Shown here one piece after another: positions 4,020 through 12,726 of a stretch of 20,423 nucleotides of DNA (within the stretch, counting starts at the first letter, position 1; each line of letters starts with the position of its first letter). The position numbers and the translations under genes were made by a program. Source of the DNA: Candidatus Campbellbacteria bacterium RIFCSPLOWO2_02_35_12 (GTDB lineage: Bacteria > Patescibacteriota > Minisyncoccia > Phycocordibacterales > UBA2163). A model generated the notes under the pieces. That model made no database searches. It had not been told where the DNA came from and saw only the letters and a list, made by a program, of their open reading frames with translations. The DNA lies in the NCBI GenBank assembly GCA_001774455.1, contig MFAC01000006.1:1-20423 (forward strand). Reading direction: 5' to 3'.

Positions 4020-4697
4020 TTAAGAATCTGTCAATTCTATACTGTATTCGCCTTCTTTCAGCCATTCAATCATGTCTTGCTGATATTGCCGCTTATTTGT
4101 ATCAAACATATCAAAAAAAAGTTCTTTGTTTGATGCATCAGCGAATTCCCCTTGTCCTTGTCCTATAATATCGCGATAGTTTGACCAGCGATACTCTTCA
4201 AGAAATTTTATCGCGCCTTTAATGTTTTTGATCCCATCTTCTCTCCAATTTGGTTGAAATACATCAAGTGGATTTGAGTGGATATAAAACGGCAGATGTA
4301 GTAAATGCGCATCGCGCATGACAGGTATGATTTTTGATCTTCCTTGAAATAGTACTCCGCTTCTATCATAGTTTTCATTGAAGTACATAGTATATCCTCC
4401 AAATATCTTGCGAGAAAACATGCCTGCAAACTTTTCGCCACATTCAGCAACAAGAAGGTGGGGGTGATTCGGCAACAAAGACCAGCAGAACACATCAACA
4501 AGTTGTTTTGACGGAGGTCGCACCTCCGTCACCTCCATCAAGTTATCATTTCTTCGACGCATATACGATTGAAGCGCATTGTCTACACTATTAAAATCAC
4601 TTATGTTATGAATGAAACGGATGTAATCTCTATTCGTAAGGAAAATTTTCCTTTTTTCCACGCCTCTATTAATCATGTGAAAGATATTTTTATCCAT
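4020..4697 (-). CDS. REP-associated tyrosine (Y1/HUH) transposase, RAYT type
   Basis: A 225-aa single-domain Y1 transposase (Transposase_17/IS200-like superfamily). The start region FHMINRGVEKRKIFLTNRDYIRFIH matches RAYT N-termini. The HUH metal-binding pair is H78 and H80 in SLLPNHPHLLV. The candidate nucleophile is Y138 in FYIHSNPLD. GGYTMYFNENYDRSGVLFQG (about 100-119) and the C-terminal EEYRWSNYRDIIG are typical of versions common in Parcubacteria. Such enzymes nick and rejoin single-stranded DNA at hairpins. Palindromes of one family lie 12 nt after the stop, 23 nt before the start, and inside the gene, where the repeat encodes about residues 56-63 in frame without breaking it. It interrupts a glycosyltransferase operon on the same strand. 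All core residues are present, so it may be active. Confidence 0.9.
   Translation of the reverse strand: MDKNIFHMINRGVEKRKIFLTNRDYIRFIHNISDFNSVDNALQSYMRRRNDNLMEVTEVRPPSKQLVDVFCWSLLPNHPHLLVAECGEKFAGMFSRKIFGGYTMYFNENYDRSGVLFQGRSKIIPVMRDAHLLHLPFYIHSNPLDVFQPNWREDGIKNIKGAIKFLEEYRWSNYRDIIGQGQGEFADASNKELFFDMFDTNKRQYQQDMIEWLKEGEYSIELTDS
4510..4530. repeat. REP-like palindrome, copy 2 (inside the RAYT gene)
   Basis: A perfect 21-bp inverted repeat with 9-bp arms GACGGAGGT / ACCTCCGTC around CGC (plus strand), in the same orientation as copy 1. It lies within the coding sequence between the N-terminal helices and the HUH motif, adding residues around VTEVRPPS. An extra imperfect half-arm (ACCTCCATC) sits directly next to it at 4531-4539, so the edge is a partial tandem. 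Confidence 0.85.
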
Positions 4698-7968: not shown

Positions 7969-8388
7969 TTATCGTCGACTTAATATCTTAGCAATAAGAG
8001 GTAGTTTCGCGCCAGCTTTTCGCAGCGCTTCTTTCGCGACTTCTTCCGAAACTCCGTCAATTTCAAACAAAATACGGCCCGGAAGAACTTCAAACTGATA
8101 CCCTTGCAAATCTCCTTTACCTTTTCCCATTCCGACTTCCGCAGGCTTTGCCGTATATGGACGATCAGGAAAAACTCGTATCCATATTCTTCCTGTCTTG
8201 CCCATTGCTTTACTGATAACCTTCCTTGCCGCCTCAATTTGATTTGATTTTATTCTCACATATGTCATTGATTTAAGTCCATATGCGCCAAAAGAAAGTT
8301 TATTGCCACGGGTAGCACATCTGATTTTTTTTAAATTTCTTCGTCTGGTTTGCCATTTTCTATGTTTTACTTTTTTAGGAAATAACAT
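7969..8388 (-). CDS. rplP: 50S ribosomal protein L16
   Basis: A 139-aa L16, which binds 23S rRNA near the A-site tRNA and completes the peptidyl transferase region. It starts MLFPKKVKHRKWQTRR, then FGAYGLKSM (about 33-41), RKVISKAMGKTGRIWIRVFPDRPYTAKPAEVGMGKGKGDLQGY (about 55-97) and LFEIDGVSEEVAKEALRKAGAKLP near the end. Length is standard. It lies 33 nt after rpsC and 25 nt before rpmC. Confidence 0.98.
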   Translation of the reverse strand: MLFPKKVKHRKWQTRRRNLKKIRCATRGNKLSFGAYGLKSMTYVRIKSNQIEAARKVISKAMGKTGRIWIRVFPDRPYTAKPAEVGMGKGKGDLQGYQFEVLPGRILFEIDGVSEEVAKEALRKAGAKLPLIAKILSRR

Positions 8389-9593: not shown

Positions 9594-9938
9594 TTATTTC
9601 TTATCATCTGCGGTTTCTTTGGCTGATTTTGCGGCGGTAATTTCAGCTTCTTTCTTTTTCTGTTCTAATTCTTTCTGCATCTTACCTCCATGCCGCAAAA
9701 ATTTTTTCGTATGAGAAAATTCTCCGAAACGATGTCCTACCATTTCTTCAGAGACAAGCACGTTTAGATGCTCTTTGCCATTATGAACACCGAATGTAAA
9801 ACCAACCATCTCCGGCGAAATCTGGCTTCTGCGCGCCCACATTTTAATAGAACCCTTAATATCTTCGGGCTTTTTTCCCTCTATTTTTTTGAGGAGTTTT
9901 TCATCAATATATGGTCCTTTTTTTAGCGACCTGCTCAT
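9594..9938 (-). CDS. rpsS: 30S ribosomal protein S19 with C-terminal extension
   Basis: A 114-aa S19, which with S13 contacts the 50S and A-site tRNA in the 30S head. Core motifs are MSRSLKKGPYIDEKLLKKIE (1-20), MWARRSQISPEMVGFTFGVHNGKEHLNVLVSEEMVGHRFGEFSHTKKFLRHGG (about 33-85). A normal S19 ends soon after this; here a charged, probably helical tail of roughly 25 residues rich in Lys, Glu and Ala follows. rplB, its usual upstream neighbour, is about 1.9 kb away behind an oppositely oriented cassette, so rpsS heads its own transcript. Confidence 0.97.
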   Translation of the reverse strand: MSRSLKKGPYIDEKLLKKIEGKKPEDIKGSIKMWARRSQISPEMVGFTFGVHNGKEHLNVLVSEEMVGHRFGEFSHTKKFLRHGGKMQKELEQKKKEAEITAAKSAKETADDKK

Positions 9939-9955
9939 TGTTTTTTCAAATTAAT

Positions 9956-9974
9956 AAGCCCTCCCTCAGGGCTT
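9956..9974 (-). promoter_or_regulatory. 5' stem-loop of the rpsS transcript
   Basis: A perfect 7-bp stem, AAGCCCT / AGGGCTT on the minus strand, around the loop GAGGG. It ends 17 nt before the rpsS ATG. With the promoter predicted at 9981-10008 the transcript would begin at about 9974, the first base of the stem, so the mRNA would carry a hairpin at its extreme 5' end. No U-tract follows on either strand, so termination is less likely. Confidence 0.5.
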
Positions 9975-9980
9975 TATAAA

Positions 9981-10008
9981 ATACTATCAAATATAAGCAT
10001 ATTGTCAA
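9981..10008 (-). promoter_or_regulatory. Promoter candidate for rpsS-rplE
   Basis: On the minus strand a perfect TTGACA (10003-10008) is followed after 16 nt by TAGTAT (9981-9986). The expected start is near 9974, about 36 nt before the rpsS ATG. It sits exactly where the second half of the S10 cluster would need a promoter because the upstream cassette runs the other way. Confidence 0.55.
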
Positions 10009-10026
10009 ATTTTGTAAACTCATCAG

Positions 10027-10048
10027 TATCAGAAAAAACTGATATAAT
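10027..10048 (+). promoter_or_regulatory. -10 box and overlapping palindrome before the methyltransferase fragment
   Basis: A perfect TATAAT (10043-10048) lies 11 nt before the ATG at 10060, so the mRNA would have only a few untranslated bases. A palindrome TATCAG-AAAAAA-CTGATA (10027-10044) overlaps it, and ATCAG also occurs once more directly upstream at 10022-10026. This could be an operator. No good -35 box is seen at normal spacing. Confidence 0.4.
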
Positions 10049-10059
10049 AAAATAAAATT

Positions 10060-10512
10060 ATGAGCAAAGACCAAAAACACCTAAATTACATAAACACTGT
10101 CAATCTAGGCTCTTATTATACGCCGGAGACCATTGTTGATTTGGCCTATTCTATTTTGAAAAAAAATATTGTAAACATTAAAGACTTTGCAATTTTAGAT
10201 TCGTCTTGTGGCTACGGTTCATTTTTAACAAAAAAAAATATTGTAAAAAGATTAGTCGGCGCCGATATTGACGAAAAAGCTGTTTCCGAAGCAAAAAAAA
10301 GAATCAATGATGTATATTTTACCTGTCAAAATTCACTTATGGATGTTTGCAGAAAAAATTTAGCGATTAATAATGATGAAAAACTTATCGCTATGGGTAA
10401 CCCTTCTTACAACGACACAACTTCAATAATCCGTAATTCCATAAAAGATGTTTCTGTTCAAGATAAAATCGATTTTAATATAAAAAAATTAGGTAATTTT
10501 ACAAAATTATGA
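10060..10512 (+). CDS. N6-adenine DNA methyltransferase, N-terminal fragment
   Basis: This 150-aa product is the front part of a class I DNA methyltransferase. LGSYYTPETIVDLA (about 16-29) is the start motif of TaqI-like and type II adenine methylases. AILDSSCGYGSF (44-55) is the SAM-binding motif I, GADIDEKA (68-75) motif II, and NPSY (114-117) the catalytic motif IV, with Ser replacing the usual second Pro of NPPY. The target-recognition half is absent: the frame stops about 33 residues after NPSY, whereas full enzymes are at least twice as long. Its TGA overlaps the ATG of the next gene (ATGA). An internal deletion that kept both ends of the original gene would explain this. It is probably inactive alone. 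Confidence 0.75.
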   Translation: MSKDQKHLNYINTVNLGSYYTPETIVDLAYSILKKNIVNIKDFAILDSSCGYGSFLTKKNIVKRLVGADIDEKAVSEAKKRINDVYFTCQNSLMDVCRKNLAINNDEKLIAMGNPSYNDTTSIIRNSIKDVSVQDKIDFNIKKLGNFTKL

Positions 10513-11282
10513 AAATTGCGTTAGAAACATCTAGCATAATGCCGCTGTTAGAAGTCACTCCTAGAACTTCTCCTCTTCAGCAGAATTTAAAAATCGTTAT
10601 TCAAAAAAACGACATTCAATTTTTTACTGATCTCTATTCTATTAAAGAAGCAAGTCAACAAATAACAACAAGTTTTGAGAACGCTATTAAGAGCTTGGAA
10701 AAGGCTATAAAAACTGCCAGTATTATCAACACTCGGGATACAAAAATTTTATCAGTCATTTTCATTAAATCTTTATGTGAGAATTGGTATGGGAGAGAGG
10801 AAACATTGAGATGGTCTGATGTTATAATTGACAAGAGACTTTATGATATTAAAAATTGTAGTGATTTTTTTATCATAATAAAAGAAAATTTATTAAGAAA
10901 AAAAGACAAATATATGTCTTCTTTACAAATAAATAATGGGGTTGTCTCCATAAATTGCAAAGAAATACAGTCATATTGGGTAAATCCACCATTTATTAAA
11001 GAACTGAAATTTGATATTAAAGTGATTGATAATAATACTCCTCTGGAAGAATTTTTTTTGAAAATACAATCTGATATTAAATCATCATTTTTAGGAAATA
11101 CAAAAATTAATGATATTGTTGATATATATCATCTTTATTCAATTTATAATGATGGGAATATTAACGAAATATGGTCATGCAATCAGTTATTTGTTAAAAG
11201 ACATAAAAAATATCTTTCTTCAGTAGATGAATTTAAAAATTTGTTTGATGAAAGTTTAGTAAAAATAAAAAGAATAAAATGA
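10509..11282 (+). CDS. Uncharacterised protein with PIN-nuclease-like features
   Basis: A 257-aa protein of no recognised family; the following is inference from pattern. The start MKIALETSSIMPLLE resembles the first strand of PIN-domain RNases, with E6 where Asp is usual. DLYSIKEASQQI (about 41-52) resembles the second PIN motif, with E47 as the acidic residue. DIVDIYHLYSIYNDGNINEIWSCNQLF (about 202-228) resembles the 'DaiHlA ... TnD..F' block, with D205 acidic and N225 where the last Asp would be. The middle has no recognisable domain. ATGA overlaps link it to the methyltransferase fragment before it and a 59-aa gene after it. It could be the toxin or nuclease of a restriction-like or toxin-antitoxin cassette. 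Base composition is far more AT-rich than the ribosomal genes around it. Confidence 0.6.
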   Translation: MKIALETSSIMPLLEVTPRTSPLQQNLKIVIQKNDIQFFTDLYSIKEASQQITTSFENAIKSLEKAIKTASIINTRDTKILSVIFIKSLCENWYGREETLRWSDVIIDKRLYDIKNCSDFFIIIKENLLRKKDKYMSSLQINNGVVSINCKEIQSYWVNPPFIKELKFDIKVIDNNTPLEEFFLKIQSDIKSSFLGNTKINDIVDIYHLYSIYNDGNINEIWSCNQLFVKRHKKYLSSVDEFKNLFDESLVKIKRIK

Positions 11283-11458
11283 AAAAATACGACATAAGAG
11301 CTAAATTTATCACAACCGTTGCATTTCCAGTAATTGAAGCAGGAAATAAAAAAGAGGCTTTAGAAAAAGCCGAACTGTTATTGTTAACAGATAAACATCT
11401 TGAAGAATCGCAAGATAACCTCCCGACTTGGGAGGTGGACAGATTGATAGGTAATTAA
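11279..11458 (+). CDS. Small 59-aa hypothetical protein
   Basis: A short frame starting at an ATG that overlaps the previous stop (ATGA), which supports its being translated. The product begins MKKYDIRAKFITTVAF and has a charged helical middle (NKKEALEKAELLL), ending PTWEVDRLIGN. Its overall look (strand, strand, helix beginning with 'KKEALEKA') is like small accessory proteins of mobile elements, but no family can be named. A 19-bp palindrome of the ACCTCC/GGAGGT type lies near its 3' end and encodes about NLPTWEV. The next open frame begins before it ends, in the +1 frame, so a frameshift joining the two is possible. Confidence 0.45.
   Translation: MKKYDIRAKFITTVAFPVIEAGNKKEALEKAELLLLTDKHLEESQDNLPTWEVDRLIGN
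11418..11436. repeat. REP-like palindrome ACCTCCC/GGGAGGT
   Basis: A perfect 7-bp inverted repeat, ACCTCCC and GGGAGGT, around GACTT, inside the 59-aa frame. It shares the ACCTCC/GGAGGT core with the RAYT-associated palindromes at 4.0-4.7 kb but differs in arm ends and loop, so it may belong to a different REP family. Confidence 0.5.
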
Positions 11459-11552
11459 CAATAATCCTGAGTTACAAATTGATCGTAGCCACCCAATAGC
11501 AAAAAATATAAATGGATTTGAGTTTGAATATACTCAGGTTAAATATCCGCTT

Positions 11553-11837
11553 TTGATTCACAAGTTTAATGGATACGAAATAGTTACTGAAATAAAAATT
11601 ACCGAAAAACAATATGCAGTCGGCACACAACCGATGTTATATTTATGTTTTCCAGTTACAAAACTGAAAGCGAAAACTAATTTAATTGGACGAACTGCCA
11701 AAACAAAAGAAATTGCTTATTTTGAAATAACAGAAAATAATATTAAAGTATTTTTAGAAATGCTAAAAATGTTTGGCGTTCTGTCTAATAGTCATAAACA
11801 TGATATTTTGCAAATTATAAATACAATTTTGACATAA
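11553..11837 (+). CDS. Hypothetical protein fragment, no normal start codon
   Basis: The frame is open from 11451 to 11837 (128 codons) but contains no ATG or GTG; the only common start is the TTG at 11553, giving 94 aa. Conserved-looking sequence extends upstream of that TTG (NPELQIDRSHPIAKNINGF, FEFEYTQVKYPLL), so the gene has probably lost its start or is joined to the preceding 59-aa frame by a +1 shift. The core NGYEIVTEIKITEKQYAVGTQ contains an E-x-K that could belong to a PD-(D/E)xK nuclease, but this is weak. No family is recognised. It ends 46 nt before the convergent rplB stop, with no terminator seen between. Confidence 0.4.
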   Translation: MIHKFNGYEIVTEIKITEKQYAVGTQPMLYLCFPVTKLKAKTNLIGRTAKTKEIAYFEITENNIKVFLEMLKMFGVLSNSHKHDILQIINTILT

Positions 11838-11883
11838 TTTGAAATATTATTATAAATCTAAGTAATTTAAGGTTTATATAATT

Positions 11884-12726
11884 CTATCTCTTCTTCCCGA
11901 CTTTTCTTCTTTTAATAATAAATCTATTTGAGTATTTTTTAGGCGTTCGCGTCTTTTGACCTTTCCCGGTCGGCTTGCCCCACATAGAAACGGCGCGTCT
12001 GCGTCCGCGTCCTGCTCGACCCTCTCCGCCGCCATGCGGATGGTCAACCGGATTCATAGCGGAGCCGCGCACCGTAGGCCGTCTCCCCATCCAACGCGCG
12101 CGGCCGGCTTTTCCGATATTTACCAAACGATGTTCGTCATTGCTCACCTCTCCTATGGACGCCCATGCTTTTTCACTGACTTTTCTTATTTCCGATGACG
12201 GCATTTTAAGATGAACAAAACCGTCATCATTTGCGATGACTTCCGCGTAATTTCCGGCTGAACGAGCAAGTTTTGCCCCGCTTTCTGGTTTTAGTTCTAC
12301 ATTATACACAAATGCGCCGACAGGTATTTTCTTAAGGGGCAAACTATTGCCAACCTTAATCACAGCATCCTCTGATGCTATTATCTTATCTCCGACTTTT
12401 ACGGATTTTGGCAATAATAAATATCTCTTTTCTCCATCTTTATAAGAAACAAGGGCTATAAACCCTGTTCTGTTTGGGTCATATTCAATAGTTTTTACGG
12501 TCGCTTCAATGTCTAATTTATCATATCTAAAACTTATCTCGCGCCACACTCTTTTGTGACCGCCTCCTTTATGGCGGACGGTGATTCTTCCTGCATTATT
12601 TCTTCCGACAGACCTATTGACGCCGCGAGTTAGAGCTTTATGCGGTTTTGACGCCGTAAGAATATTTCTATATGAGATTCCTGTCATTCCGCGTCTGCCA
12701 GGTGTTGTTGGTTTATATTTTTTCAT
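11884..12726 (-). CDS. rplB: 50S ribosomal protein L2
   Basis: A 280-aa L2, a primary 23S rRNA binder near the peptidyl transferase centre. It begins MKKYKPTTPGRRGMTGISY, contains GRNNAGRITVRHKGGGHKRVWREISF (about 42-67) and the conserved histidine region MNPVDHPHGGGEGRAGRGR (about 225-243), ending RRKVGKKR. Full length. It is separated from rplW by a 173-nt gap holding a 102-bp inverted-repeat element, and from rpsS by the oppositely oriented cassette. No terminator is visible after the stop, so its transcript may run antisense into the cassette. Confidence 0.98.
   Translation of the reverse strand: MKKYKPTTPGRRGMTGISYRNILTASKPHKALTRGVNRSVGRNNAGRITVRHKGGGHKRVWREISFRYDKLDIEATVKTIEYDPNRTGFIALVSYKDGEKRYLLLPKSVKVGDKIIASEDAVIKVGNSLPLKKIPVGAFVYNVELKPESGAKLARSAGNYAEVIANDDGFVHLKMPSSEIRKVSEKAWASIGEVSNDEHRLVNIGKAGRARWMGRRPTVRGSAMNPVDHPHGGGEGRAGRGRRRAVSMWGKPTGKGQKTRTPKKYSNRFIIKRRKVGKKR

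Follow-up and report, generated by a model that had tools for sequence, protein, structure and literature searches.

An apparent relic of a PabI-type restriction-modification system with a PIN-like two-gene module in place of its core in a Candidatus Campbellbacteria genome

Restriction-modification systems and toxin-antitoxin systems are both viewed as selfish elements and as analogous to each other. In the PabI type of restriction-modification system, a methyltransferase (M) is paired with a restriction DNA glycosylase (R). In R.CcoLI, catalysis depends on Tyr52, His222, and Asp225, with Lys71 serving the lyase step (PMC7806768). PabI pairs inserted in operons have been described, and it was suggested that this insertion may enforce operon maintenance (PMC4615327). 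In Helicobacter pylori, the PabI pair was replaced by hrgC, and what remains of it is 78 bp of the 5′ part of M and 88 bp of the 3′ part of R, to which hrgC is opposite in orientation (PMC4615327). It is a single gene of fewer than 100 residues with a predicted transmembrane product, and the authors speculate on a takeover of the PabI locus by a toxin, with hrgC under suspicion (PMC4615327, PMC10273834). This is the one earlier case known to us of a toxin-like gene replacing the middle of a restriction-modification pair. Here, we describe a locus on a 20,423-nucleotide stretch from Candidatus Campbellbacteria bacterium RIFCSPLOWO2_02_35_12 (contig MFAC01000006.1, positions 1 to 20,423; the whole stretch is called the window). 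The cassette between its ribosomal protein genes rpsS and rplB appears to be the relic of a PabI-type, base-excision system, the core of which was replaced by a two-gene module encoding a PIN-like protein and a 59-aa protein.

The cassette is flanked by rpsS (9594-9938) and rplB (11884-12726), both on the minus strand. The listing of open reading frames gave four frames on the plus strand between them, at 10060-10512, 10509-11282, 11279-11458, and, without a start codon, 11460-11837, which agrees with the genes described in the initial annotation of this DNA. The ATGA stop/start overlaps by which it had joined the first three genes are present at 10509 (M stub and PIN-like gene) and at 11279 (PIN-like and 59-aa genes). 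The earliest possible start in the startless frame is a TTG at 11553.

The startless frame (11460..11837, plus strand) encodes the last 125 residues of a 253-codon R.PabI-type restriction DNA glycosylase, an identity that was missed when the frame was first noticed. This R stub belongs to the R.PabI domain family, matching all 119 positions of the Pfam profile PF09522 with an E-value of 7.8e-45. It also matched R.PabI-family chains in the PDB (7cfa, E 2e-31; 2dvy, E 1e-10). The match to 7cfa, presumably R.CcoLI, begins at chain residue 114, that is, after Tyr52. The His and Asp of the catalytic triad are kept (HKHD) and the half with the Tyr is gone, so the full Tyr-His-Asp triad is not present. 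An intact parent was found in another Patescibacteria genome, G388, in which a 390-aa M overlaps a 253-aa R, both full length. The R stub was 87% identical to this R gene at the DNA level over 417 columns and retains its codons 129-253. The match starts 18 bases inside the 3′ end of the 59-aa gene, and the last codons of that gene (TTGATAGGTAAT) are similar to R's own TTGATTGGTAAT near the joint. This likeness may be microhomology, with the caveat that homologs of the 59-aa protein have similar ends.

The first frame (10060..10512, plus strand) retains codons 1-142 of a type II methyltransferase of 390 codons, followed by 8 unrelated codons, which confirms the methyltransferase fragment of the initial annotation. 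It matched the PADLOC model MTase_II (E=3.3e-25, model positions 3-128 of 343) and was 83% identical in DNA to the M gene of G388 over 454 columns, the match stopping 22 bases before the start of the PIN-like gene. The C-terminal 248 residues are gone; with 142 of 390 codons left, the R stub has no intact adjacent methyltransferase as in a PabI-type system. What we take to be the AdoMet motif (DSSCGYGSF) is retained in the M stub, and the presumed motif IV is altered, reading NPSY against NPPY in the intact relative. By their content, both stubs are predicted to be non-functional. The 5′ region of the cassette (10035..10059, plus strand) contains a TATAAT-like element with an inverted repeat, TATCAG-N6-CTGATA, that begins a few bases before 10035. 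The segment CTGATATAATAAA of this region is common to the sister genome G003 and to G388, and the left arm of the repeat is common to G003 only. A scan for consensus promoters listed no sigma-70 promoter at 10035..10059; the element is a putative promoter of the M gene.

The base composition was also compared. The GC content was 28.1% in the cassette and 35.3% in the window, and as rplW has 28.2%, composition by itself is weak evidence. Lines of 60 bases with 6-9 G/C also occur elsewhere in the window. The hand counts behind the earlier statement that the cassette is much more AT-rich were correct (9 G/C at 10861-10920, 24 at 8041-8100), and the AT-richness is real but modest and not unique. 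The initial annotation was right about an opposite-strand foreign cassette, the coupling of its genes, and its restriction or toxin flavour.

The sister genome G003, the rplB of which is 93% identical to that of the window, carries a PabI system at the same place. Its contig C16 reaches 199 bp past rpsS and breaks off within the start of M; contig C5 opens within the end of M and runs on through R (a 272-codon frame) to rplB. The shared site argues that the parent system was probably at rplB-rpsS before the replacement. As a caveat, the middle of M is absent from the G003 assembly, which gave no M-profile match, and its R is partly masked. In G001, of the same genus, only 85 bp separate rplB and rpsS, a nearly empty site. 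The N-terminal half of R diverges more between G003 and G388 (67% versus 89% DNA identity); because the middle segment is variable in the protein alignment, no mosaic R is claimed for G003. A second match to the R.PabI C-terminus, 33 codons long, was observed on another contig of the sister genome (G003:C42:15959-16057; L005 1501-1599).

R.PabI is rare in this group. It was found in 3 of 60 relatives (6 of the genus and the rest of the order) and in 3 of 379 genomes of a phylum sample drawn from a larger group, 2 of them above the curated cut-off; both sets include the window. A spread of the same genes across a deep clade, named earlier as the sign that would speak against a foreign cassette, was looked for among the 60 relatives, and the parent system occurs between rplB and rpsS only in G003 and the PIN-like gene only in the window. 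In G029 (L042 1411-3029), a 236-aa R.PabI adjoins a methyltransferase with a best PADLOC model unlike that of the window, which suggests that R.PabI may change methyltransferase partners.

The gene at 10509..11282 (plus strand) starts in the ATGA of the M-stub stop and encodes a 257-aa protein, the model of which is PIN-like (VapC-like) with a long helical insertion; the earlier PIN-like label was well chosen. It belongs to a compact family described here, for which Pfam, NCBIfam, and PADLOC gave no significant match, and a fold search of BFVD gave nothing at E 0.001 or better. In an alignment of 28 of its 46 homologs, the candidate active-site residues are conserved: position E6 is acidic in 27 of 27, and D41, E47, D104, and D205 are present in 28 of 28. 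A Glu stands in the window protein where the VapC PIN motif usually has its first Asp. Close homologs of the module (P0002-P0005, 72-83% identical) come from other sources. The small gene at 11279..11458 (plus strand), overlapping the PIN-like stop in the same way, encodes a 59-aa protein that is a possible partner. It has 9 homologs of 72-98% identity and a weak Pfam similarity to DUF3933/DUF4288 under the curated cut-offs; no antitoxin model matched it in the libraries searched.

That the PIN-like gene is common in the lineage was rejected, as the search of 60 relatives and that of 379 phylum genomes each recovered it once, in the window itself; the 59-aa family likewise occurred in 1 of 379, the window's own. 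None of the 6 genomes searched in the order of G388 had the PIN-like family. Carriage by phage or plasmid was also rejected, as neither the plasmids collection nor the phages collection gave a match; the viral_contigs collection gave 8 pattern stretches, none of them a relative. A literature search on PabI with a PIN domain gave nothing on that combination, judged by titles.

We favor, with a probability of about 0.72, the reading that a module of toxin-antitoxin-like or accessory nuclease character took over a dead PabI locus, after the arrival of PabI and the replacement of its core. A PabI-type pair, methyltransferase then restriction glycosylase, would have arrived in the common ancestor of the window genome and G003, probably by horizontal transfer, and landed in the gap between rplB and the promoter region of rpsS. 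In the window lineage, recombination would then have exchanged part of each gene, 248 codons at the C-terminal end of M and 128 at the N-terminal end of R, for the PIN-like/59-aa module of approximately 0.97 kb, breaking both halves of the restriction-modification system together. The module would thereby have been placed behind the 5′ region and translation start of the M gene through the ATGA coupling, and the M 5′ region with CTGATATAATAAA may now drive it, a case of promoter capture. The PIN-like protein would act as a nuclease that the neighboring 59-aa protein restrains or modulates. We hold a toxin-antitoxin-like action of the module only tentatively, at somewhat less than an even chance; beyond this and decay, the remaining probability would fall on other nuclease roles.

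A second locus was found by a pattern-based scan of 84,980 species genomes, which returned 26 stretches with one PIN-like relative, in UBP14 bacterium UBA6098 (L044). This homolog is 55% identical to the window's protein and lies one base after the stop of a 154-aa truncated N-terminal half of R.PabI, which matched a solved R.PabI with E 4e-8. The closest relatives of this half are 243-aa proteins, and most of its relatives have a length of 241-246 aa. An N6_N4 methyltransferase frame that looks complete then follows. PF09522 had no match in the UBA6098 genome, and of 17 genomes of its phylum only UBA6098 itself has the PIN-like family. A single recombination point in R was rejected: the first R codon left in the window is 129 in the numbering of G388, and the match of the UBP14 half to its relatives extends about 30 alignment columns further. 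The two R breakpoints are in the same region at different points. Given the rarity of R.PabI, it is notable that the PIN-like gene touches a truncated R.PabI in 2 of 2 loci, one of the two being the window. At L044 3063-3497, a methyltransferase N-terminal part adjoins the truncated R.PabI and has LAPPF where DPPF is usual. From these loci, an unnamed family of PIN nucleases might be imagined to specialize in PabI loci of at least two phyla, recombining into M-R, silencing both, inheriting the M promoter and start, and so making a toxin-antitoxin-like element; we regard such a general strategy as decidedly unlikely.

The insertion site was then compared across the order. Both rplB and rpsS lay on one contig in 46 of the 60 genomes; G019 was left out, having the genes 45 kb apart and in another order, which gave 45 colinear genomes. 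In the remainder the genes were on different contigs (12 genomes), or rplB (G006) or both genes (G028) were missing in these searches. The gap was at most 150 bp in 7 colinear genomes, 151-400 bp in 6, 401-1000 bp in 10, 1001-6000 bp in 20, and larger in 2, exceeding 400 bp in 32 of 45, the window included. The initial annotation took rplB and rpsS to be neighbors in most bacteria, which does not hold in this order. The cargo in these gaps includes IMPDH, TruD, and L10. A scan of fillers in other genomes, covering 44 of 58 frames of at least 90 aa from 19 loci picked for their gaps, matched 33 Pfam families, mostly with one member each (N_methyl, 3; TrmB, 2), and no restriction or toxin family was among 25 of the 33. 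No literature on the S10/spc operon in the Candidate Phyla Radiation was among the matches listed, which does not show the split cluster to be undescribed.

A promoter-like element of rpsS, TTGACA-16-TAGTAT (9981..10008, minus strand), lies between the cassette and rpsS. Because a scan of 9800-12000 gave 19 promoter-like sites against 11.8 expected in shuffles, a match alone proves little and conservation is what counts: TTGACA, 16 bases, and a hexamer beginning with TA are kept before rpsS in all six genus members. This argues that the cassette probably lies between transcription units. In the rpsS leader, a hairpin with a 6-pair stem directly upstream of rpsS (9956..9974, minus strand) is also conserved in all six, and one of its pairs has changed in both bases, a covariation not above shuffles (104 of 500 reach the same level). 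This putative structure may serve as an attenuator or as a binding site for a ribosomal protein. In G004, the promoter-like element and the hairpin sit farther from rpsS, by roughly 0.2 kb in the upstream direction. Just after rplB, G004 and G005 carry an inverted repeat with a T-run; the window has no terminator-like site just after rplB in the scan of 9800-12000. Elsewhere in the window, a 225-aa frame at 4020-4697 (minus strand) has no Pfam match at E up to 1 and looks to us like a REP-type tyrosine transposase.

The site bears on the model of the initial annotation, in which a working restriction or toxin cassette would make its host dependent on it by sitting inside an essential ribosomal operon, a form of addiction. 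Although the published suggestion on operon-inserted PabI pairs is in its favor (PMC4615327), the loose gap in the order and the promoter-like element kept before rpsS across the genus leave the anchoring unsupported and addiction by this route unnecessary. Moreover, M and R are both truncated, so the restriction-modification system should not hold its host by post-segregational killing. We consider this model very improbable. An assembly join, in which each stub would derive from a different strain and the module from some other source, appears more improbable still. The window genome is a fragmented draft of 37 contigs and 59% completeness, and the contigs of G003 also break inside the cassette, but both flanks with their stubs match G003. 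In addition, clusters P0001 (99%, 14 members) and P0047 (98%, 5 members) hold the module genes, although these may be the window's own assembly.

The whole cassette could also be decaying debris in which the module is a mere passenger, with nothing expressed or selected. The content of both stubs, the changed motif IV, and the finding of the module in just one of the 379 phylum genomes are consistent with decay. However, the PIN-like and 59-aa frames are full length, ATGA-coupled, and carry family-wide conserved residues, and P0002-P0005 were listed from other sources; we judge decay unlikely. The PIN-like protein might also have been swapped in for R to serve restriction-modification systems, of the PabI type or others, as a novel effector or a third component; this would suit its contact with truncated R.PabI in both genomes where it was found and the complete-looking methyltransferase frame in UBP14. 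But these are two cases, the M of the window is truncated too, leaving no methyl guard at the locus, and the genomes with full-length PabI pairs, G388 and G029, have no PIN-like homolog, which makes such an effector improbable. The takeover of a dead PabI locus is thus the reading that we retain, and its closest described relatives can be compared with it.

With the R.PabI and R.CcoLI glycosylases (HALFPIPE; PF09522), the R stub shares the whole Pfam profile and the His and Asp of the triad; it differs because its N-terminal half is missing, and with it the triad Tyr and the N-terminal base-recognition residues. The module may resemble VapBC in its PIN-like model, in conserved acidic residues that are candidates for the active site, and in a small ATGA-coupled gene, but the PIN-like protein has a long helical insertion and the small gene lies downstream and is of no recognized antitoxin family. 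Compared with the hrgC replacement, the middle of a PabI pair is likewise lost and fragments of 5′ M and 3′ R flank a non-homologous gene. In contrast to hrgC, the window genes have the same orientation as M and R and overlap the M stub; they form a pair of a 257-aa PIN-like protein and a 59-aa protein, set apart by size and description from the single gene of fewer than 100 residues; and the stubs, at about 0.43 and 0.38 kb, exceed the 78 and 88 bp left beside hrgC. The architecture of the cassette is the same as in H. pylori, and the replacing genes, their orientation, their coupling, and the phylum differ. That a different toxin-like gene, oriented like the stubs and coupled to that of M, occupies such a locus in another phylum makes the idea of a takeover testable.
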